Below are positions 2,147 through 24,390 of a DNA stretch of 41,859 nucleotides, piece after piece. A program made the translations under genes and the position numbers. Location of the stretch: NCBI GenBank assembly GCA_012974445.1, contig JAAXQG010000056.1:1-41859 (forward strand), given 5' to 3'. The notes under the pieces were generated by a model. It saw only the letters and a program-made list of their open reading frames with translations, had not been told where the DNA came from and made no database searches. This DNA comes from Desulfuromonadales bacterium (GTDB taxonomy: Bacteria; Desulfobacterota; Desulfuromonadia; Desulfuromonadales; JAAXQG01). Position 1 is the stretch's first letter. Each line of letters starts with the position of its first letter.

Positions 2147-3226
2147 TCAGGCGGGCTCGCCATCCTTGAGGGCAAATAGTTCATCAAACACCCCTTGAAC
2201 CGTCTCCATATGGTCGGCGCGCCAGGCGTTGGTGCCGCAGAAGATAATCCCGGTCTCCACGTCGCCGCGCTGGGCTCGATCCAGAGCATGAACGATGCAG
2301 AACCGCTCCTGATTGGCTTTGTAGGTACATTTTTTAAGACAACCCGAAGGACAACGAATGCCGCGGTCCTTATCATAGGCCAGCACCTTGTCTATGTTGG
2401 GCAGCAGAGCACGACCGGGCAGGCCCGCAGGGCTCATCACCAGGCCGATATCTTCCTTGCGACAGTCGAGATAAGCCTGCTTGTAGGCATCGGCGGCGTC
2501 ACACTCCCTGGTGGTGACAAAGCGGCTGGCCATCTGAACCGCATCGGCACCCTCCGTAAGGGCATGGAGCAAATCAACACGATCCCAGACGCCACCGGCG
2601 GCAATCACGGGGATATCCAGCTGCCATGCCTGCCTGAAATAGGCCTTGACGGCTCGGACGGTTTCATACTGGTCATAGAGCCCCACTCCAATATTCTCGA
2701 GCTTCTCCCCCAGGTGCCCCCCGGCAGTCTCGGGATCTTCCACCACCACAGCGTCGGGCAGACGCCCCCAGCCCTTGTGCCACTTGCGGGCGATGAGCTC
2801 GGCAGCCTTGACGGAGGAGACGATGGGCACCAGGGCCACATCGGGATAATCACTAGTCAGCCCAGGAAGTTTAAGTGGCAACCCGGCGCCGGTCACGATG
2901 AGCTTGGCACCCGCCTCGCAGGCCACCTTGACCGCATGGTCGTAGTTGGAGACCGCCACCATACAATTGACACCAATCACACCGTCCGGTGCGATCTCGT
3001 AGGCTTTTTTTAATTCATCAGCCAGAGCCAGAGGGTCCGCGGTAAAGAAATTGCGACCATCGTAGTGCGGGCTGTTAAGTCCGACGCCGGCAGCGGCCAC
3101 AAGACCGATACCGCCACAGAGGGCCACATGCCCGGCCAGCCCGGCGCCCGAGATACGGACCCCCATTCCCCCCTGGATGAGAGGAAATTTTGCAACATGT
3201 TTTCCGATGGTCAGCGGCTGGGTCAT
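2147..3226 (-). CDS. nitronate monooxygenase-like NAD(P)H-dependent flavin oxidoreductase
   Basis: This 359-residue TIM-barrel flavoprotein belongs to the nitronate monooxygenase / 2-nitropropane dioxygenase family. Visible marks are IQGGMGVRISG near residues 17-27, the active-site-like His171 in TAGGHLG, and the FMN-phosphate-binding segments PVIAAGGVWD (206-215) and GADAVQMASRF (226-236). The C-terminal part has a cysteine cluster C292-x3-C296-x3-C300-x9-C310, as in many anaerobe homologues, which could bind metal or an Fe-S cluster. I chose the ATG at 3226 because AAGGAG sits about 7 nt upstream; a longer in-frame ATG 14 codons earlier lacks this. The gene is monocistronic, divergent from the kinase gene at 3362 and ended by the hairpin at 2061-2103. 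The physiological substrate is unknown; many relatives are general flavin oxidoreductases. Confidence 0.88.
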   Translation of the reverse strand: MTQPLTIGKHVAKFPLIQGGMGVRISGAGLAGHVALCGGIGLVAAAGVGLNSPHYDGRNFFTADPLALADELKKAYEIAPDGVIGVNCMVAVSNYDHAVKVACEAGAKLIVTGAGLPLKLPGLTSDYPDVALVPIVSSVKAAELIARKWHKGWGRLPDAVVVEDPETAGGHLGEKLENIGVGLYDQYETVRAVKAYFRQAWQLDIPVIAAGGVWDRVDLLHALTEGADAVQMASRFVTTRECDAADAYKQAYLDCRKEDIGLVMSPAGLPGRALLPNIDKVLAYDKDRGIRCPSGCLKKCTYKANQERFCIVHALDRAQRGDVETGIIFCGTNAWRADHMETVQGVFDELFALKDGEPA

Positions 3227-3361
3227 GTAAACTCCTTGTATCTTTAAATAGATTCGGAGCCGCACCATATCAAACTGCGGTTTTTTTTTCTGTAAAACTT
3301 ATGTAAAAGCACCCGCCGAAAGCCCTTGCCCGCCCCCCGGTCGGGATGCTAAAGAGACTGC

Positions 3362-4309
3362 ATGAAACTGCTGAGATCCCTCATCCATCCCCTGTTTGCC
3401 ATGATCGCTATTCAGCTTGCCTGGATTATCGTCGTGCTGAGCTGGATTTACTGGTTTTTGGGTACCCAGAAACGTCTGCGCAACCTGGCGCAGCAGTACC
3501 GCCCCGAGCTGCTCAACACCAGTACCGACTGGATCATCATGGTTGAGGGGCTGGTTCTGCTGGTTATGATCCTGGCCGGGGTCTATGTCATCTTTCTTTA
3601 CTGGAACCGGCAGCGCTCCCTGCTCAAGGAGCAGAAGAACTTCATCTCCCAGGTCACCCATGAGCTCAAATCTCCCCTGGCCTCCATCCAGCTCCACCTC
3701 GAAACCATCCAGCTTCGTCACCCCGAACCGGGAAAACTCGATTCCTTTGTCGAAACCATGCTGGAGGACACCAGTCGACTCCACAGCCTGATCAGCAATC
3801 TGCTCACGGCCAGCCGGTTCGAACAGCGAGGACTCAAACTCAGCCTGCGCCGCATCGATCTTTCACGCTTTACTCACAGCTATTTCGAAGGGCAGCGCAG
3901 CTCCCTGCCCCCGCAAAGCCGGATGGACCTCGAAATCAGCCCGGGGATTTGGGCCAATGTGGAGACCGAATCGCTCTCCATCGTCTTTCGCAATCTGCTG
4001 GAAAACGCCGTCCTCTACTCCCCCTCGCCACCGACACTGAAAATCGAGCTATTCTCTCAAGGCGGAGCCTGTCACCTTCGCTTCTGTGACCAGGGGCGCG
4101 GCATCTCCGAACCTGACAGGAAAAAGATTTTCCGTATGTTTTACCGGGTTCGCCGCGGTGGAGAGACCATTCAAGGCACCGGTCTTGGGCTCTTCATCGT
4201 GCGAGCCATAGTGCTGCGCCACAAAGGTAAAGTCTCCGTAGAGAGTGAGGGTGAAAATAAGGGGACCACATTCCACATCCAGCTGCCAATGGCGCAGGAG
4301 GCACAATGA
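3362..4309 (+). CDS. membrane sensor histidine kinase
   Basis: This 315-residue kinase has two predicted membrane helices (about 9-33 and 57-80) flanking a very short 24-residue periplasmic loop, then the transmitter domain. The H box is ISQVTHELKSP with phospho-acceptor His100. The N box has Asn211 and Asn215, G1 is DQGRG (243-247), the F box is around 254-261 and G2 is GTGLGL (272-277). With almost no extracytoplasmic domain it resembles kinases that sense the membrane or an internal partner. Its stop overlaps the start of the OmpR-type regulator (ATGA), so the two form a cognate pair. The input signal is not evident. Confidence 0.93.
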   Translation: MKLLRSLIHPLFAMIAIQLAWIIVVLSWIYWFLGTQKRLRNLAQQYRPELLNTSTDWIIMVEGLVLLVMILAGVYVIFLYWNRQRSLLKEQKNFISQVTHELKSPLASIQLHLETIQLRHPEPGKLDSFVETMLEDTSRLHSLISNLLTASRFEQRGLKLSLRRIDLSRFTHSYFEGQRSSLPPQSRMDLEISPGIWANVETESLSIVFRNLLENAVLYSPSPPTLKIELFSQGGACHLRFCDQGRGISEPDRKKIFRMFYRVRRGGETIQGTGLGLFIVRAIVLRHKGKVSVESEGENKGTTFHIQLPMAQEAQ

Positions 4310-5007
4310 ATACTCCAATACGTCACCAGATTCTGCTGGTAGAAGACGAGATGCATATCGCCCAGGGGCTGATTTTCAACCTGGAACGGGAGAATTTCCA
4401 GGTAACGCATTGCACTTCGGGAGAAGAGGCGCTGAGACTTTTCAACGAACAGAACTTCGACCTGATCATACTTGACCTGATGCTTCCGGGCATCAGCGGG
4501 TTCGAGGTATGCAGGCAGATCCGCATCGATGCCCCCCGACTCCCGGTGCTTATGCTCACCGCCATGACCGGGCAGGATCAACTGCTCAAGGGGCTCTCCG
4601 AAGGAGCCGATGACTACATGACCAAGCCTTTCAACCTGGCCGAGTTCCTGTTGCGGGTCAGGGGGATGCTCAAGCGCTCAAGATGGTACGCAGAACGCAC
4701 AACGGAGCAGGTTTTACACTTCGGGACCAATGAAATCGATCTGGAGCGACGACAGGCCAGGACCGCCCGGGGGGAACTACAGCTGACGGAACTGGAGGTG
4801 AAGATCCTCAGAACGTTCTTTGATCGAAGCGGCGAGGCCATCTCCCGCGCCGAGCTTCTCAGCTCCGTCTGGGGCATGAGCCCTGAAACCGAGACCCGCA
4901 CCCTGGACAACTTCATCGTCAGGCTGCGTAAATACTTCGAAGACGATCCCGCCAAACCCGTCCATTTCATCACCGTACGAGGCCAGGGGTACAGGTTTCA
5001 GCCCTGA
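4306..5007 (+). CDS. OmpR/PhoB-family response regulator
   Basis: This 233-residue regulator is the partner of the preceding kinase (4-bp ATGA overlap). The receiver domain covers about residues 8-120, with acidic pocket Glu13/Asp14, phospho-acceptor Asp57 in LDLMLPG, Thr85 and Lys107 in DYMTKPF. The C-terminal winged-helix DNA-binding domain (about 135-232) has the typical LTELEVKIL and TLDNFIVRLRKYF helices and ends in the hairpin GQGYRF. It would bind direct-repeat operators after phosphorylation. No target site is identified in the window. No clear terminator directly follows; transcription may run into the repeat-rich gap. Confidence 0.95.
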   Translation: MNTPIRHQILLVEDEMHIAQGLIFNLERENFQVTHCTSGEEALRLFNEQNFDLIILDLMLPGISGFEVCRQIRIDAPRLPVLMLTAMTGQDQLLKGLSEGADDYMTKPFNLAEFLLRVRGMLKRSRWYAERTTEQVLHFGTNEIDLERRQARTARGELQLTELEVKILRTFFDRSGEAISRAELLSSVWGMSPETETRTLDNFIVRLRKYFEDDPAKPVHFITVRGQGYRFQP

Positions 5008-6825: not shown

Positions 6826-7398
6826 TTATTTCTTTCCCTTTTCTGTAGGCCAGAGATGAACGATTTTCGCGCCGTAATGACCCAAAAGGGTCACTAAAGC
6901 CACAAGCGCCATTATAAGAAGGCCATAGAGGGATTTTTTCCATAGAACCTCATACCATAAATCTGTATCGAAAAAGCGCCACACCACGGCAACCCAGCAA
7001 AGGGCAACCAGCAGGAGTCCAAGAGCTTTCTTGAGCTGAAACACCGGTGCAATCTTGGCCCTGTAGAGTCTTCGCCAGTCGGAAAACCCGGTAAACCACA
7101 CCGCGGGAACGCTCAAGGCACTGAGACAGAGCATGGCGTAGGCCGCCTTCTCGAAGAAGGGATCATCGAAAATCATCGCTAGCGCCAGAAACAGGGCAGC
7201 TACCGGGAGCAGGGCCGCAGGGAAATGGCTTAACACCACATGAGGAACAACGATTTCACGAAATTCCCGGACCAACTCCCGCAATGGGGATTCGACCCGA
7301 ACAAACAAGCTGGCATCCACACCACAGCGCGGACAGATCTCAGGTGGGCCCTCTCCCTCATGGATATAATCGCAAACCACACAGCGCCAGCGACTCAT
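6826..7398 (-). CDS. rubredoxin-like domain fused to a DUF2231 membrane protein
   Basis: This 190-residue protein begins with a rubredoxin-like iron site of the rubrerythrin type, C6-x2-C9 and C22-x2-C25, in the pattern WRCVVCDYIHEG...PPEICPRCG. It is followed by about four membrane helices (roughly 52-78, 85-104, 122-142, 157-176) resembling the DUF2231 family. Histidines in or near the helices (His53, His58, His174, His181) could ligate haem b, but that is inference. The layout suggests a membrane redox protein with a cytoplasmic iron-sulfur-type electron entry. ATG at 7398 is chosen because it begins the conserved rubredoxin domain; a GTG at 7416 would add six residues. It is divergent from the oxidoreductase gene at 7564. 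Confidence 0.83.
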   Translation of the reverse strand: MSRWRCVVCDYIHEGEGPPEICPRCGVDASLFVRVESPLRELVREFREIVVPHVVLSHFPAALLPVAALFLALAMIFDDPFFEKAAYAMLCLSALSVPAVWFTGFSDWRRLYRAKIAPVFQLKKALGLLLVALCWVAVVWRFFDTDLWYEVLWKKSLYGLLIMALVALVTLLGHYGAKIVHLWPTEKGKK

Positions 7399-7563
7399 AA
7401 CTGCCACCTGGAGCACCGACAGGACGGAGTTGCGCCTTTAGTTATTGAAAGCTGGACCCAAAACACTATAATCGTGCGATTATCTGCCATAACATCCATG
7501 CGTAAACTCCTGCTACAAAATCTGTACTGAGTGCAGCCGCAACCTTAAAAAGGAGAGAGATCC

Positions 7564-8553
7564 ATGAAAGCCGTACTGCTCAATGGTTTCGGAGGGCTCG
7601 ATGTCCTCAAGATCGGTGAAGTCGAAAAACCCGCTCCGAAAGACGACGAAGTTCTCATCAAGGTGATGGCCAGCTCCATCAACCGCCCTGACCTGGTTCA
7701 GCGCGAAGGGAAATATCCCCCTCCGGCGGGAGAGTCAGAGATTCTCGGGCTGGAAGTCGCCGGAATCATCGAAGCTCTGGGTAAGGACGTAACCGGCTGG
7801 CAGGTCGGCGATCGGGTCATGACCCTGGTGGGCGGCGGCGGATATGCCGAGTACGCAACGGCCTATGCCTGCCACCTGATGGCGATGCCCGAAAACATGA
7901 GCTTCGAAGAAGCTGCCTGCGTGTGCGAATCCTATATTACAGCATTTCTTAACGTTTTCATGATCGGCGGACTCGAAGACGGCCAGACGGCCATCCTCCA
8001 CGGCGGAGGCGGCGGTGTAAACACGGCCGCGATCCAGCTGGCCAAGGCCCTGACCCCCAACGCCAAGCTCATCGTCACCGCACACCCCAGCAAGATCGAC
8101 CGGGTCAAGAAGCTGGGCGCCGACCTGGTGATCGATTTCACCACCACCCCCGATTTTGCCGACAACGTGAAGGAGTTCACCGGCAAGAAGGGGGTCGATG
8201 TAATCCTCGACCATGTGGGCGCCAAGTATCTGGCCCCCAACATGAAGTCCCTGGCCTACAAGGGCAAACTGGTCATCATCGGCATCATCAGCGGCTTCAA
8301 GGCTGAGCTCAACCTGGCCCTGATGATGGTCAAGCGTCAGCAGATCATCGGTTCGGTGCTCCGGTCCCGCCCCATCGAGGAAAAAGCCGAGATCGTCGCG
8401 GAGTTCACGCGCCGGGCCCTGCCGAAATTCGCCGATCGCAGCATCGTGCCCATCATCGAAAAGTGCTTTACCCTTGAGGAAGTGGCTGACGCCCACGCAA
8501 TGATGGAAGCGGATACGCATTTCGGCAAAATAGTTCTGACCACGGAGCCCTGA
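7564..8553 (+). CDS. NAD(P)H quinone oxidoreductase-like, zinc-less MDR-superfamily protein
   Basis: This 329-residue protein belongs to the medium-chain dehydrogenase/reductase superfamily, PIG3/quinone oxidoreductase branch. The N-terminal GroES-like domain has SSINRPDLVQREGKYPPP (about 36-53) and LGLEVAGII. The Rossmann domain has the glycine-rich HGGGGGVNTAAIQLAK near 145-160 and a later VDVILDHVGAKY. The catalytic zinc ligands of alcohol dehydrogenases are absent, as expected for this branch, which reduces quinones or enones with NADPH. The start at 7564 has AAGGAGAGAG just upstream. The stop is one base from the TTG start of the shikimate-kinase-like gene, indicating an operon. Confidence 0.92.
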   Translation: MKAVLLNGFGGLDVLKIGEVEKPAPKDDEVLIKVMASSINRPDLVQREGKYPPPAGESEILGLEVAGIIEALGKDVTGWQVGDRVMTLVGGGGYAEYATAYACHLMAMPENMSFEEAACVCESYITAFLNVFMIGGLEDGQTAILHGGGGGVNTAAIQLAKALTPNAKLIVTAHPSKIDRVKKLGADLVIDFTTTPDFADNVKEFTGKKGVDVILDHVGAKYLAPNMKSLAYKGKLVIIGIISGFKAELNLALMMVKRQQIIGSVLRSRPIEEKAEIVAEFTRRALPKFADRSIVPIIEKCFTLEEVADAHAMMEADTHFGKIVLTTEP

Positions 8554-8554
8554 T

Positions 8555-9082
8555 TTGTCCCCTGCCACCCGCTCCAACCTCATACTCATCGGCATGCCCG
8601 GAGCGGGCAAGAGCACCGTGGGTGTCATCCTGGCCAAACGACTGGGTATGGCCTATGTCGACACCGACCTGCTGATCCAGGTCCGGCACGAAAAAAGCCT
8701 CCAGGCCCTCATCGATGAGAGGGGTCTGGAGGCCTTTGGCTGTATCGAGGAAGAGGTACTCTGCGGGCTCGATGTCCGCAGGTCGGTTATTTCCACCGGA
8801 GGTTCAGCCGTCTATAGCGACGCCGCCATGAAAGTCCTCCGGCAACAGGGGCGGACCCTGTTTCTGGATGTCCCCCTGCCCCAGCTCAAAGAACGCATCA
8901 CCAACATGGGGGACCGGGGCATGGTGATCGCCCCAGGCAGCAGCCTAGAGGATCTCTACCGGCAGCGACACCCCCTCTACCGACGCTATGCCGACCTGTA
9001 TCTGGATGCCTCCGAAGGCTCGGCCGAGCAGATCGCGAGGAAGGCGGCGGAGCTTTGGCTGAAGCGTTCAGAACTGCCCTGA
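8555..9082 (+). CDS. shikimate kinase-like P-loop kinase
   Basis: This 175-residue protein has the shikimate kinase fold markers: Walker A GMPGAGKST (13-21), DTD motif with Asp36/Asp38, and the STGGSAV glycine pair at 82-83. The helix RHPLYRRYADL near 137-147 resembles the adenine/substrate helix. The motif that is normally FRxxE is here FGCIE (61-65), so the arginine that binds the shikimate carboxylate in characterised enzymes is missing. The protein may act on another alcohol, or use a different arginine. The start is TTG at 8555, the only start giving the Walker A motif a proper N-terminus, with GGAG about 8 nt upstream inside the preceding gene. It is coupled to the oxidoreductase gene rather than to aroB or aroC. 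Confidence 0.8.
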   Translation: MSPATRSNLILIGMPGAGKSTVGVILAKRLGMAYVDTDLLIQVRHEKSLQALIDERGLEAFGCIEEEVLCGLDVRRSVISTGGSAVYSDAAMKVLRQQGRTLFLDVPLPQLKERITNMGDRGMVIAPGSSLEDLYRQRHPLYRRYADLYLDASEGSAEQIARKAAELWLKRSELP

Positions 9083-18941: not shown

Positions 18942-20777
18942 ATGAACACAAGTCTTCCCCAGATGGTACTGGCGAGATGCGAACGGGACCCGGCCGGGAC
19001 CGCACTCAAGGAGCGAGCAGGAGGGAAGTATCGTTGCATCTCCCGCCGCGAGCTGCACTTGCGAATCCGAACCCTGGCAGCGGCCCTTCTGTCCATGAAA
19101 ATCCAGAAGGGGGACCGAGTGGCTATCCTGGGCCCCAACGGCCCACACTGGGTCACGGCCGACCTGGGCGCCCTGCTCTGTGGGGCCATCACCGTTCCCA
19201 TCTATCATAACGACAGCCTGAGCGCCACCTTTCACATACTGGAGGATTCAGAAGCCTGCATCCTGTTCTGCCACAGTACCGCAACGGCCCTGGAAATACT
19301 CCAACAGCGCCAGAGACTCCCCGAGCTACAGACCGTCATTACCATGGACGGAGAGGGGCCCTCGGCAGGGCTCAAAGACATCTCAGAACTTCTGGGCACC
19401 GTACCGCCAGAGCCGCTGGATGAGCGCACACTCCTTGGCCGTATCGACTCTGGCCATCCGGCTACCCTGGTCTATACTTCTGGAACCACCGGCAAACCCA
19501 AGGGCGTCTATCTCAGCCACGGCAATATGATCTCCAACATCGAAGCCTGCGCCGCCATATTTCCCCTGGATGAGAGAGACTGTTGCCTCTCCTTCCTGCC
19601 ACTGGCACACGTCTTCGAGCGCATGGCAGGTTATTATTTCATGCTCAGTCAGGGCGTCACCATCGCCTACGCCGAATCGCTGGCCACTGTTCCCCGGGAT
19701 ATGCGCGATATAAACCCCACGGTCATCATCAGCGTACCCCGACTCTTCGAAAAAATATTTGATCGCATCCAGCTGGGGCTGCGCCAGAGCGGGGAGCTCA
19801 AGCAGTCTCTCTTTAACCACGCCCTCGAGCTGAGCCTTGCACGCTGGCGAAGAGAACTCCAGGGACTGCCGCCTACAGAAGGCCAACGCTTCCTGCTGCC
19901 TCTTGCCGAACAAATTCTGTTCCGTAAAATCCGCAATCGCCTTGCCGGCAACCTGCGCTTCTTCGTCTCCGGAGGTGCCCCCCTTCGGCTGGAGATCGCC
20001 CAATTTTTCCTCGGCATCGGGCTGCCGATTTACGAGGGATATGGCCTTACCGAGACTTCTCCGGTGATTGCCGCCAACCGCCCCGGCGCACACCGCCCCG
20101 GCACCGTAGGGCGCCCCCTGGTGGGAACGGAGGTTCGCATCGCCGAAGACGGAGAGATCCTCGCCCGGGGGCCAGGCATCTTTACTGGTTACAGGAACCG
20201 CCCGGCTGAAACTGAAGCGGCACTTGCTAACGGATGGTTTCACACCGGTGACATTGGAGAGCTTACCGCGGAAGGATATCTGCGAATCACCGATCGCAAA
20301 AAGGACCTGATAGTTACCGCCGGTGGGGAAAATATCGCCCCCCAGAACATCGAGGCAATGCTGAAGGATATTCCCCTGATCAGCAGCGCTCTGGTATACG
20401 GAGATCGCCGTCCTTATCTCAGTGCCCTGATCGCGCCGGAGCTCGATCAACTCCGAGCCCTGGCGCGCAAGCTGGGGCAGCAGTTCCAGGACGACTGCGA
20501 GCTCGTCTCGGCTCCCGCCATACTCAGCAGACTCCGAGATCTCATCGATGAACGCCAGAAAAGCCTGCCTTCCATCGAGCGGGTCAAGCGCTTCACCCTG
20601 CTGTCGCGTGATTTTTCCCAGGACAGCAATGAAGTAACTCCCACCCTGAAACTCAAACGCCCCGTGATCTGCCAACGCTTCAGCTCCGTAATCGAAGGGA
20701 TGTACGGCGCCCAGGACCAGAACCGGCATGATGCCGGACTCTGCGTCATCGAAGAGTTAAGTCCCGATGAAGAATGA
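18942..20777 (+). CDS. long-chain acyl-CoA synthetase (AMP-forming)
   Basis: This 611-residue protein is of the FadD/ACSL branch of the adenylate-forming superfamily. The P-loop-like A3 motif TLVYTSGTTGKPKG is at 175-188, the FLPLAHVFER linker motif of long-chain synthetases follows near 218-228, the A5 motif YGLTETSPV is near 365-373, and DRKKDLIVTAGGENIAPQNIE near 450-470 carries the hinge and the loop leading toward the catalytic lysine region. It activates fatty acids with ATP and CoA for beta-oxidation or lipid synthesis. A strong AGGAGG lies 5 nt before the ATG. It is divergent from coaE and stands 100 bp upstream of the HEAT-repeat gene. Confidence 0.94.
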   Translation: MNTSLPQMVLARCERDPAGTALKERAGGKYRCISRRELHLRIRTLAAALLSMKIQKGDRVAILGPNGPHWVTADLGALLCGAITVPIYHNDSLSATFHILEDSEACILFCHSTATALEILQQRQRLPELQTVITMDGEGPSAGLKDISELLGTVPPEPLDERTLLGRIDSGHPATLVYTSGTTGKPKGVYLSHGNMISNIEACAAIFPLDERDCCLSFLPLAHVFERMAGYYFMLSQGVTIAYAESLATVPRDMRDINPTVIISVPRLFEKIFDRIQLGLRQSGELKQSLFNHALELSLARWRRELQGLPPTEGQRFLLPLAEQILFRKIRNRLAGNLRFFVSGGAPLRLEIAQFFLGIGLPIYEGYGLTETSPVIAANRPGAHRPGTVGRPLVGTEVRIAEDGEILARGPGIFTGYRNRPAETEAALANGWFHTGDIGELTAEGYLRITDRKKDLIVTAGGENIAPQNIEAMLKDIPLISSALVYGDRRPYLSALIAPELDQLRALARKLGQQFQDDCELVSAPAILSRLRDLIDERQKSLPSIERVKRFTLLSRDFSQDSNEVTPTLKLKRPVICQRFSSVIEGMYGAQDQNRHDAGLCVIEELSPDEE

Positions 20778-20877: not shown

Positions 20878-22425
20878 ATGGTAAACACGCAGGACATCCA
20901 GAGAGTAGAGAGCTGCCTGACAGGGCTGGGAAAGCTGATCAAGGCCGGGCAATTCTACCCCCCCGAGCACCCTGCCTTCGAAGCCGCGCTCCAGCATGAG
21001 CTCTCAGCCCTGCGCCCCCTGGCAAAGGAAAGCGGCTTGCTGATCGAGGTTTCCCGTGAGAGCTTCCGCTTTGAGGACAAGCCTGTGGCCCCGGGCAATG
21101 TATCCCTGAAAAAAATGGCGGCATTTTTTTTCACTCGACGCATTCGGAGTCTGCTCTTTCTGCCTCAAATTGAGGCGGAGGATCTGCGAGAGCTCAGCCT
21201 GATCATCGGGCTGGAAACAGCCGAGATACTGAATCAGGGGGGAATCCAGCAGATCCTGAGGCATCGGGAACTAAGGGCCATCCAGGTCAATGAACTGGAT
21301 CCTCTCAAAAACTTGATAAAAACCCCCTCTTTCCAGGGGGAAATGCACGAAAAGCAGGCGAGTTCCCTTGCGCAGAAAAAAAAGGCCGAACTACCTCAAA
21401 ACCTTGCCCAACTCCTGGAGAGGCTTCAGCAGAGTTTTACCAGCGAGCACTACGTCGAGCTACTCAAAATCGTCCCCCGCCTGGCGCTGCGCGAACTCAC
21501 CCCGGCCGGTGCCGAGTCTTTGACGGAGCTCTGCTGCCTGCTCGGCGGCCATGCAAGGGCTGAAAAATTTACCGAAGTGATGCAAAAAGCGGCGTTGCAA
21601 ACCCTTGATCAGCTGCTCACCCCCGACCATCTTCACCTGAGCCTTGAAAAACTCTGCAGCAACCAGCTCAGCTCAAAAGATGAGAAACGCTTTGTCGCAG
21701 CCCTTCTACTTCATGATGAGAAAGTTTTTTTCCCGACCCTCGAAGAGCTCGCACTGGCCCGGGATCCGGTGCTCAGAGAAGGTCTCACCCAGCTTGCGAT
21801 CCAACTCTCTGCTGGCAGAACCAAACACCTGATAGGCCTGCTTCGCGAGGAGCGCCTGCCCATCCGACAGGTGGCCCTGCGCCTGCTGGGAAGGCTCAGG
21901 GCGCAGGAGGCGGTGGATGTCATCGTTGAGCTACTTGACGAAGTCGAACACGATCTTCATCGGGAGCTGCTCGGCACCCTTGCCCGCATTGGCGGAGAGC
22001 AAGCACAGAGAGCTCTCATCGATCTGGCGACATCCCGGGACTCTGAGCTTCAGACCCAGGCCATCCTGACGCTGGGGGCCATGCGAAGCCAGAAAGCCAC
22101 CGGTGCGCTGCTGAGGATTCTGGAAAAGGTCCGACTCAAACAGACCAACCTTGAACTGATGCGCACACTGGTCAAGACCCTGGGGCAGATCGGTTCACCG
22201 GAAGCGGTCCCCTTGCTGGCAAAGGTGCTGAAGAAAAAATCATTTTGGAAACGAACACTCAGAAATGACTATCGCTGCGCCCTGGCACTGGCCCTGGCGG
22301 AGATCGGGGGAGATGAGGCGAGACAGGCGCTGGAGCAGGCCTCTCAGGATCGCAATTCCCGTGTGGCGGACTGTGCCAGTCGTGCCCTGATAAAATTACC
22401 TAGAAATGAATCCCATGAATATTGA
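20878..22425 (+). CDS. HEAT-repeat protein with an N-terminal domain shared with the next gene product
   Basis: This 515-residue protein is not assigned to a characterised family. Residues about 10-110 resemble the N-terminus of the following HD-GYP protein: both have a helix ending FYPPEHPA / LYPARHPA, then an FRFEDK / LYFEEY strand, then RIRSLLFLPQIEAEDLREL / ALEFHIGLSERELLIF. Residues about 165-255 are helical and charged. The C-terminal half (about 280-510) is a row of HEAT/PBS-lyase-type repeats, such as IRQVALRLLGRLRAQEAVDVIVELL and ALIDLATSRDSELQTQAIL. No membrane segment or signal peptide is visible. HEAT arrays usually bind proteins, so this is probably a scaffold working with the HD-GYP protein, whose gene overlaps it by 20 bp. 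The ribosome binding site is weak (GAGG about 12 nt upstream). Confidence 0.8.
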   Translation: MVNTQDIQRVESCLTGLGKLIKAGQFYPPEHPAFEAALQHELSALRPLAKESGLLIEVSRESFRFEDKPVAPGNVSLKKMAAFFFTRRIRSLLFLPQIEAEDLRELSLIIGLETAEILNQGGIQQILRHRELRAIQVNELDPLKNLIKTPSFQGEMHEKQASSLAQKKKAELPQNLAQLLERLQQSFTSEHYVELLKIVPRLALRELTPAGAESLTELCCLLGGHARAEKFTEVMQKAALQTLDQLLTPDHLHLSLEKLCSNQLSSKDEKRFVAALLLHDEKVFFPTLEELALARDPVLREGLTQLAIQLSAGRTKHLIGLLREERLPIRQVALRLLGRLRAQEAVDVIVELLDEVEHDLHRELLGTLARIGGEQAQRALIDLATSRDSELQTQAILTLGAMRSQKATGALLRILEKVRLKQTNLELMRTLVKTLGQIGSPEAVPLLAKVLKKKSFWKRTLRNDYRCALALALAEIGGDEARQALEQASQDRNSRVADCASRALIKLPRNESHEY

Positions 22426-23746
22426 TCCCCTTCGTCAAGCCGTCCAGGCCCTGGCAGGAACCTTCAAGAGTCTCCAGCTCTATCCGGCTCGCCACCCGGC
22501 GGTCGCAAAACAGATCGGCCTGGTGCAGCTGCTTCTGCAACGACTCTTCGCCGACAAGCAAAGTCTCAAACTCGGAGTGATTGAAGGCAGCCTGTACTTC
22601 GAGGAATATCTCGCCGAAGAAAAACATGGCGCAGCCGCCGAGGTCGCCCGAATCCTGGTCAGCCTCGGAATTGAGGCCTTGGAGTTTCATATTGGCCTGA
22701 GCGAAAGGGAGTTACTGATATTTCTCGACGCCGTCGCCTCGGGGCAGGACAAGGGAAAACGACTGGCCACTGAACTTCAGAGCCAGGGTGTCGAAAACAT
22801 AAGGATTTTGAGCCTGCGCAAAAAACCCCAGGAGGACAGGCGCGCTGCCCGCAAGGTATACGGACAGGCGCTGAAGGTCATGGAGGACATATTCCACGAC
22901 GTACGTCTGGGCACCATCCCCTCTACAGCTGAAGCAATAACAGTCATCCGTGAAATGACCCAGATCACCCTGGACGATCCGCACTCCATTTTTGCCCTCT
23001 CCCTGCTCAAGGACTACGATCAGTACACCTTTACCCATTCAGTGAACGTCTCAATCATCGCGCTGGCCGTGGGCCGGGCCTGCGAACTCTCCACCGACCG
23101 ACTCAGGCTACTGGGGCTCGGTGCGCTTCTGCACGATCTGGGAAAACTCAAGACCGACGTGCGCATCATCTGCAAGCCAGGAAAGCTCACTGCCGAAGAG
23201 TTCCATGAAATAAGAAAACATCCGGCAAATGGTGTCGCCATCGTCGAACAGATGGAAAGCATCCCCCCGGAAGTCCTGGACATCGTTCGCGGCCACCATC
23301 TGCATTTCGATCGTAGCGGATACCCCCCCGAGGCACTCCAACAGAAAACATCGGCTCTGGTAGAGATGACCGCCATCGCGGATACCTATGATGCAATGAC
23401 CACCCTGCGTGCCTACCAACGCCCCATGACCCCTAGACGAGCCATAGAGAGAATGCATCAGCTCTCGGGCAACTACCTTCATCCCGAGTATGTTCGACGA
23501 TTCGTCGCATCGCTGGGGGACTACCCCGTGGGAACCCTGGCTCGCCTGACCACCAACGAAATCGGACTGGTCACACGTGTCGGCAGGGGGCATGCCCCGC
23601 AGGCGCTGGATATTAAACTTATTTTCGATGCCCGGGGTCAGCGAATCCCCTCCCCTCCGACCCAGAACCTAGCCGAACGCGGCGTGGAAATCGTCGCCGA
23701 AGTCGATCCCCTGAGCAAGGGGATCGATATCTCAGACTTTCTGTAA
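22406..23746 (+). CDS. HD-GYP-domain phosphodiesterase-like protein with a novel N-terminal domain
   Basis: This 446-residue protein has about 110 N-terminal residues matching the start of the preceding HEAT protein, a helical linker, then an HD-GYP domain (about 195-370). Metal-site residues are present: His211 in HSVNVS, His243-Asp244 in HDLGK, His272, His297-His298 and an Asp in DTYDAMT. The GYP triad is at 305-307. The usual HHExxDGxGYP is here HHLHFDRSGYP, so the Glu and the first Gly differ. A c-di-GMP or 3',3'-cGAMP phosphodiesterase role is the family expectation, but the changed motif means activity must be tested. The C-terminal 75 residues form an extra beta-rich tail. The gene overlaps the upstream HEAT gene by 20 bp; start could be Met1 or Met4 (22415). 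Confidence 0.88.
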   Translation: MNPMNIDPLRQAVQALAGTFKSLQLYPARHPAVAKQIGLVQLLLQRLFADKQSLKLGVIEGSLYFEEYLAEEKHGAAAEVARILVSLGIEALEFHIGLSERELLIFLDAVASGQDKGKRLATELQSQGVENIRILSLRKKPQEDRRAARKVYGQALKVMEDIFHDVRLGTIPSTAEAITVIREMTQITLDDPHSIFALSLLKDYDQYTFTHSVNVSIIALAVGRACELSTDRLRLLGLGALLHDLGKLKTDVRIICKPGKLTAEEFHEIRKHPANGVAIVEQMESIPPEVLDIVRGHHLHFDRSGYPPEALQQKTSALVEMTAIADTYDAMTTLRAYQRPMTPRRAIERMHQLSGNYLHPEYVRRFVASLGDYPVGTLARLTTNEIGLVTRVGRGHAPQALDIKLIFDARGQRIPSPPTQNLAERGVEIVAEVDPLSKGIDISDFL

Positions 23747-23820
23747 TGCAGGGGGGAACAAGGCGAATGAAATCGGGATGGGACAGCGGTATTGCTCAGA
23801 AAAATGTGTATCAAAAAAAC

Positions 23821-24390
23821 TCAGGAGGGACGGAGTTTACCCAGAGCTCGGGCCGCCGCGGCCCGAACCTCGGGCCTTTTATCCTCCAGAGCCTTGAGCA
23901 GAGGGCCCTGAGCTTCCGGAGCACCGATGCTCCCCAGAGCCCCTGCCGCACAGCTGGCCAGATTTGAATCAGCTCCCCCGAGCAGGGGAGCGAGATAGGA
24001 AATCAGGCGTTTGTCCCCAAAGCCCCCCAGCGCCTCCGCCGCATAATAGCGTACGGAAGAATCGGGGTCCTTGAGGCGCTTGACCAGCTCTCCCAGCGTT
24101 TTGGGGTGCCTCTTGTGCCCCAACACCTGCACCGCGGCCACCCGGATATCGGCATCCATGTCTTCGAGCTGCTTGAGAAGGGGCTGGAAAATCCTGGAGC
24201 TGTCGATCTGTTGTGCAGAGAAAATAGCCTGAATCCTGCGCCCCCGGGCTCCTGAGCCCATCGAGGCAATCACCTCGTCGACACAAAGCAGAGACTCCAG
24301 CTGCTCCAGTGCTTCGGCCGCCGCATTGCGAACTTCCGGACTGTCATCCTTCAACATTTGCTTCAATGCCTGCCAGCGTTCGTTCTGCAT
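23821..24390 (-). CDS. small HEAT/PBS-lyase-repeat protein
   Basis: This 189-residue protein consists almost entirely of HEAT-type repeats, such as SPEVRNAAAEALEQL, ADIRVAAVQVLGHK, SSVRYYAAEALGGFGDKRLI and RPEVRAAAARALGKL. No catalytic motif, signal peptide or membrane segment is seen. Similar repeats occur in phycobilisome lyases and in scaffolds for signalling or cofactor enzymes. It is convergent with the HD-GYP gene (74 bp between the stops) and lies downstream of ssb but beyond that gene's terminator. Together with the large HEAT protein it makes two HEAT proteins flanking one HD-GYP protein, suggesting a common process, but function is unknown. Confidence 0.82.
   Translation of the reverse strand: MQNERWQALKQMLKDDSPEVRNAAAEALEQLESLLCVDEVIASMGSGARGRRIQAIFSAQQIDSSRIFQPLLKQLEDMDADIRVAAVQVLGHKRHPKTLGELVKRLKDPDSSVRYYAAEALGGFGDKRLISYLAPLLGGADSNLASCAAGALGSIGAPEAQGPLLKALEDKRPEVRAAAARALGKLRPS

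Follow-up and report, generated by a model that had tools for sequence, protein, structure and literature searches.

A 41,859-nucleotide stretch of DNA from a Desulfuromonadales bacterium (assembly GCA_012974445.1, contig JAAXQG010000056.1; hereafter the window) carries a trio of neighboring genes, two for HEAT-repeat proteins and one for an HD-GYP protein, that very likely form a functional module of some kind. Two overlapping forward genes encode N-HEAT and N-HD-GYP, which begin with homologous N-terminal domains (N-domains), and a third gene, encoding the small HEAT-repeat protein HEAT3, converges on them. The explanation that we favor, and consider somewhat probable as a whole, is that the products of the trio assemble on a HEAT scaffold into a heteromeric complex that acts as a cyclic-dinucleotide phosphodiesterase. 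The list of open reading frames (ORFs) places the two overlapping genes and the convergent third gene where an earlier note on this DNA had put them. The features are as follows:

20878..22425, + strand: N-HEAT gene (HEATn), 515 amino acids (ORF list, HEAT_2 match, AlphaFold model)
20878..21303, + strand: shared N-domain of N-HEAT, approximately residues 1-142, motif YPPEHP (hhalign)
22406..22425, + strand: 20-nucleotide overlap of the N-HEAT and N-HD-GYP genes (sequence; the N-HEAT TGA at 22423 lies past the N-HD-GYP ATG)
22406..23746, + strand: N-HD-GYP gene, 446 amino acids (ORF list, HD_5 match, AlphaFold model, Foldseek matches to HD-GYP structures)
22406..22825, + strand: shared N-domain of N-HD-GYP, approximately residues 1-140, motif YPARHP (hhalign)
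23003..23476, + strand: HD-GYP catalytic core, with H211, H243/D244, K247, H272, H297/H298, GYP 305-307 and D326 (Pfam placement, residue conservation in 141 short-type homologues, a size class given below)
23821..24390, - strand: HEAT3 gene, 189 amino acids, a small HEAT-repeat protein converging on the pair (ORF list, HEAT_2 match, orientation kept in 30 of 33 order-level loci)

Homology of the two N-terminal domains

A direct BLASTP comparison of the N-HEAT and N-HD-GYP N-termini was suggestive only (31% over 32 amino acids, E=0.008). We also compared profile alignments of 32 full-length N-HEAT proteins (A1) and 34 full-length N-HD-GYP proteins (A2), with homologues drawn from 38 genomes of the same order. 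The two N-domains aligned in hhalign with a probability of 98.2-98.6% (P 3e-14 to 1.3e-15, 110-132 columns), while six controls pairing the N-domains with the HEAT array, the HD domain, or HEAT3 gave probabilities of 3.7% or less. When hhalign was repeated among four N-domain subgroups, the probabilities were 98.6-99.8%. These scores, together with the controls, reject chance resemblance and bear out the homology that the earlier note had proposed from the letters alone, although the shared domain spans about 130-140 residues rather than the ~110 given there. A duplication of the N-domain onto a scaffold and a putative phosphodiesterase is thereby supported at the level of sequence profiles.

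The AlphaFold2 models point the same way. The mean predicted local distance difference test (pLDDT) score was 88.7 for N-HD-GYP and 87.4 for N-HEAT, in which residues 142-169 scored below 50. Compared by residue boundaries, which are near-identical, both modeled N-domains have the predicted order helix-helix-hairpin-helix-strand-helix-helix-strand. Helices (H) and strands (E) were placed at H7-25, H31-47, E53-59, E62-65, H75-86, E91-95, H100-112, H117-126, and E132-135 in N-HD-GYP, and at H4-26, H32-49, E54-58, E63-65/68-70, H75-86, E91-94, H100-110, H114-119, H123-129, and E135-137 in N-HEAT; the YPxxHP motif lies between helices 1 and 2. We found no relative of the N-domain above cut-off in Pfam, in NCBIfam, or among PDB sequences. 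DUF3391, the N-terminal domain of other HD-GYP proteins, was rejected as its identity (22.1 vs. 27.8 bits, with only 2 of 34 members matching at all). Foldseek searches with whole models were uninformative on the N-domain, since the HD-GYP domain and HEAT arrays dominated the matches.

Beyond the N-domain, N-HEAT continues through a low-confidence linker into C-terminal HEAT repeats, and N-HD-GYP continues through a helical linker (modeled as helices 141-167 and 174-190) into an HD-GYP domain and a small, beta-rich C-terminal tail. Both N-HEAT (1.4e-16, 60.9 bits) and HEAT3 (7e-33, 113.2 bits) exceeded the 27.7-bit gathering score of the Pfam family HEAT_2 and are thus HEAT-repeat proteins. 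N-HD-GYP matched HD_5 in Pfam at 1.5e-18, and its model matched the HD-GYP structures 4mcw, 3tm8, 9rbz, and 4r8z in Foldseek with E values of 1e-8 to 1e-6. A phycobilin lyase/NblB identity for the HEAT proteins was rejected at 50.6 bits against an NCBIfam equivalog cut-off of 300 bits, as was a defense system role for HEAT3, whose matches were merely generic HEAT matches.

Conservation and correlated evolution of the pair

Pairs of N-HEAT and N-HD-GYP fall into two main size classes, a short one (~530 + 445 amino acids) that is often accompanied by HEAT3 and a long one (~720-800 + 380-420 amino acids) that lacks it. Within the order, the two genes were adjacent in all 33 loci, with one N-HEAT split into two ORFs and another truncated where its contig ends. 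In 30 of these loci, HEAT3 was convergent on the pair. A scan of named genomes gave 80 loci, all in Desulfuromonadales or Geobacter-type records or in unplaced delta-proteobacterial metagenome-assembled genomes; N-HEAT was upstream in 76, and three of the four exceptions were contig ends. The flanking genes vary among the Geobacter-type loci, and the pair, usually with HEAT3, persists. The neighborhood survey that the earlier note had called for therefore finds the pair nearly always together and rules out that the homologues never co-occur.

Across 194 genomes of the class Desulfuromonadia, both genes were present in 131 and neither in 57, with only the HD-GYP gene in two and only the HEAT gene in four (short-type N-HD-GYP in 133 genomes and N-HEAT in 135 overall). 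N-HD-GYP lay directly downstream on the same strand for 127 of 137 N-HEAT copies, at a median gap of 13 nucleotides between matches, and several of the 10 non-adjacent copies were contig ends or fragments. As the genomes that lack the genes belong to several families (f7, f8, f19, f22, f23, f115, and f116), joint loss of the two genes has probably recurred. One N-HEAT gene (L093 in G013, 6968-8631) is read as two ORFs in a single-contig genome, which suggests a frameshift or decay.

In the phylum, N-domain profiles matched 123 of 297 genomes, and N-HEAT was followed by N-HD-GYP in 34 of 40 fetched loci and in 13 of 20 further ones. Over the whole analysis, the two genes were seen side by side more than 150 times. 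Outside the order, we found no recurrent functional neighbor of the pair, the flanking genes being mostly of housekeeping type. In a tree of 123 N-domains, few branches of which were well supported, the copies on HEAT proteins and those on HD-GYP proteins were kept apart with 4 changes vs. 41 in shuffles, so the duplication that gave scaffold and enzyme N-domains looks older than the short/long split. The heterotypic pair itself looks ancient and appears from these sequences to have been duplicated as a unit.

Pairwise distances, taken from 31 loci and the window, showed that the N-domains of the two proteins evolve at correlated rates. The correlation between HEAT_N and HD_N was 0.87 raw and 0.74 after the effects of coaE and ssb were removed, a correction that takes out the linkage of adjacent genes and shared ancestry only in part. 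The within-protein references after the same removal were 0.74 for HEAT_N/HEAT_C and 0.70 for HD_N/HD_C. The top corrected correlation, 0.85, was that of HD_C with HEAT3, which hints at an action of HEAT3 on the HD-GYP domain.

A frameshifted, shortened remnant of a long-type N-HEAT gene lies next to a gene for a 2-oxoacid dehydrogenase E2 (C323, 28589-28986; L280/L281/L282) in the window's genome, from which the long pair has apparently been lost, leaving the short pair only. Elsewhere (L102, 6321-12912), a long pair directly precedes the plsC-RNase J-bacA genes that flank the window's short trio. In three proteins of ~740 amino acids each (L270, L271, and L273), the N-domain is followed by 600 residues without a Pfam match, possibly diverged HEAT arrays.

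In the window, the N-HEAT and N-HD-GYP genes overlap by 20 nucleotides if translation of the latter begins at ATG 22406, or by 11 if the in-frame ATG at 22415 is the start, an arrangement compatible with translational coupling. As in the order-level loci, the trio is flanked by coaE and an acyl-CoA synthetase gene on one side and by ssb, plsC, RNase J, and bacA genes on the other. A 448-amino-acid ORF antisense to the acyl-CoA synthetase gene (19383-20729, - strand) resembles a coding-strand shadow. No riboswitch or other RNA was found in the window.

The HD-GYP active site and competing explanations

Catalytic residues were read against the numbering of PmGH (PMC4159591) in 141 short-type and 10 long-type homologues. 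The equivalents of PmGH H189, H221, D222, H250, H276, H277, and D305 were invariant in all 141 short-type copies, and the metal-ligand set H...HD...H...HH...D was also kept in all 10 long-type copies. The equivalents of Lys225 (141/141) and Arg314 were likewise invariant, and the GYP loop retained its Tyr and Pro in every short-type copy and its Gly in 140. Since N-HD-GYP keeps the fold along with the metal ligands and the GYP loop, we class it as a divergent HD-GYP. The position of PmGH E185, a mark of the trinuclear centre, was occupied by Tyr in 141 of 141 copies. Tyr or Phe at this position defines a predicted binuclear subfamily, the trinuclear centre being confined to another (PMC4159591), and N-HD-GYP thus falls in the predicted binuclear group.

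The window's genome, which is 85.5% complete, contains 31 GGDEF matches, eight HD_5 matches, and four GEMM-I riboswitches. A REC-GAF-GGDEF gene lies directly upstream of the long pair at L100, and a GGDEF gene lies downstream of the long pair at L222; as these were the only two such loci, GGDEF was rejected as a general partner gene of the pair. GEMM-I riboswitches occur in 181 of the 194 class genomes and, being near-universal, do not discriminate between genomes with and without the trio. A flagellar role was also rejected: flagellin was matched in 140 of the 194 class genomes, but neither in the window's genome nor in many others with the trio. The earlier note had suggested a local cyclic-dinucleotide signaling module, and it is the chemistry of that proposal that the invariant metal ligands, the GGDEF genes beside the long pair in two genomes, and the abundance of GGDEF and GEMM-I elements support. 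Likewise, from its argument that a duplicated domain suggests a physical complex, co-retention, adjacency, and correlated rates sustain the functional unit.

In the complex that we favor, N-HEAT and N-HD-GYP, made from overlapping genes, would associate through their homologous N-domains as a heterodimer or mixed oligomer, a pairing that may go back to an ancestral domain that formed homodimers. N-HEAT would use its HEAT array as an arm that docks the complex on a client or signaling partner, and HEAT3 would be a third subunit or a regulator touching the HD-GYP part. The HD-GYP domain would act as a two-metal phosphodiesterase, cleaving a cyclic dinucleotide, either cyclic di-GMP (c-di-GMP) or 3',3'-cyclic GMP-AMP (3',3'-cGAMP), where the scaffold places it.

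A number of observations weigh against this proposal, in which we infer the subunit contact, catalysis, substrate, client, and local action. The extended motif HHExxDGxGYP is not preserved: its Glu is replaced by Leu (101), Ile (17), or Met (10) in the 141 short-type copies, and the Gly of DG by Arg in 107 of them. The equivalent of PmGH Lys317, which contacts guanine O6 (PMC4159591), is Gln in 116 of 141. A check of further HD-GYPs, most of them encoded in the window's genome, showed that these keep HHE, have Gly after D/N, and have Lys or Arg where the motif is readable. These changes in the HHE Glu, the DG Gly, and the base-contact Lys suggest that activity or substrate may differ. The Fisher P of 1e-41 for co-occurrence takes no account of phylogeny, linkage and ancestry may still contribute to the rate correlations, and the immediate neighbors of the trio are housekeeping genes without a signaling role. 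Stand-alone N-HD-GYP copies exist (L096-L099 and others), and long N-HEAT occurs without a partner at L233, L240, L241, and L251. The N-domain is also found on a PAS-histidine kinase (L252), so its function may be sensory instead of dimerising. In the L252 protein (2284-4656, - strand), the N-domain is fused to PAS-HisKA-HATPase, and a GAF histidine kinase gene follows. Of the stand-alone N-HD-GYP proteins, those at L096-L099 are paralogs, and at L096-L098 they lie beside ORFs sized as a glutamate-synthase/FeS-flavoprotein cluster, Pfam-identified in L096.

The histidine kinase and the solo copies of either partner, along with the sensor, linker-helix, and output layout of N-HD-GYP (helices 141-167 and 174-190), would also fit a reading in which two separate effectors of one pathway each carry the N-domain as a sensor of redox state or of a small ligand. 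Their genes would then be co-regulated and co-retained, without a complex, because both proteins respond to one signal. We regard this as possible but rather unlikely, as sequence searches of Pfam and PDB found no pocket or ligand-binding family match for the N-domain, HEAT arrays are mostly binding surfaces and seldom outputs, and the near-perfect co-retention and adjacency and the within-protein level of rate correlation fit a complex at least equally well. The altered HHE, DG, and Lys317 residues, kept in the other HD-GYPs checked, could instead mean that N-HD-GYP is a non-enzymatic cyclic-dinucleotide receptor that switches the HEAT scaffold upon binding, in the manner of LapD or DvhD. HD-GYPs of the receptor type are known: DvhD, a PAS/HD-GYP c-di-GMP receptor of Desulfovibrio vulgaris, has SQ in place of HD, has lost HH, and is inactive (PMC13090378). 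DvhD and N-HD-GYP have in common that each is an HD-GYP of a sulfate reducer and is tied to a partner. However, N-HD-GYP has not lost the HD and HH ligands, which sets its family apart from this dead receptor, and selection for catalysis would be expected to leave the binuclear ligands, Lys225, and the GYP Tyr unchanged, as they are in all 141 copies. We consequently hold a receptor role to be unlikely.

As to the substrate, 3',3'-cGAMP was considered because of the Lys-to-Gln change at the guanine-contacting position, and we judge it an improbable, though not negligible, candidate. Still less probable is the broader picture of a phylum-wide scaffolded signalosome built on an unnamed hetero-oligomerisation domain, in which the HD-GYP protein with its Gln would serve Geobacter and related bacteria as a phosphodiesterase devoted to 3',3'-cGAMP, at the spot to which the HEAT arm brings it. 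A substrate other than cyclic dinucleotides, such as pGpG or another phosphoester, could account for the altered base-contact residue and extended motif and for the trio in genomes where no GEMM-I riboswitch was detected (G004, G018, and G357). We give it little credence, since the Arg314 equivalent is invariant, GGDEF genes adjoin long pairs, and the nearest PDB relatives, Bd1817 excepted, are cyclic-dinucleotide enzymes or receptors.

Relation to known systems and significance

The enzyme and the repeats belong to known classes. The N-domain and the pairing, with its conservation across the phylum, appear to be undescribed; our literature search, in which subscription journals were thinly covered, returned no description of a HEAT/HD-GYP pair. 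N-HD-GYP shares the HD fold, the H...HD...H...HH...D ligands, and GYP with HD-GYP phosphodiesterases of the predicted binuclear Y/F subfamily and with the structures PmGH (4MCW/4MDZ), PA4781 (4R8Z), and Bd1817 (3TM8), but it differs in its HHL, DR, and Gln317 substitutions, in carrying an uncatalogued N-domain instead of REC, GAF, or PAS, and in having a near-obligate HEAT neighbor that bears the same N-domain. The HEAT arrays of N-HEAT and HEAT3 resemble those of HEAT-repeat/PBS-lyase-like proteins (PF13646, NblB, and CpcE), but both proteins fall far below the curated cut-offs of the named lyases and of NblB, families in which no such N-domain is annotated. PmxA, an HD-GYP protein of Myxococcus xanthus, is said to be most active on 3',3'-cGAMP. 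It differs in its N-terminus, and we know of no HEAT partner for it. A Gln close to the PmxA active site has been held responsible for cGAMP selectivity (PMC8177086). The Gln that replaces Lys317 in 116 of 141 N-HD-GYP copies may occupy the corresponding position.

These bacteria have dozens of GGDEF proteins, and a heterotypic enzyme/scaffold pair built from one N-domain and kept phylum-wide offers a clean, genetically tractable case in which to examine local signaling and how one cyclic-dinucleotide enzyme stays in one pathway. The N-domain is a nameable family that is missing from the libraries used (Pfam, NCBIfam, and PDB). In Geobacter, cGAMP controls extracellular metal respiration (PMC6456294), and N-HD-GYP is a candidate for the breakdown of cGAMP or c-di-GMP in these organisms.

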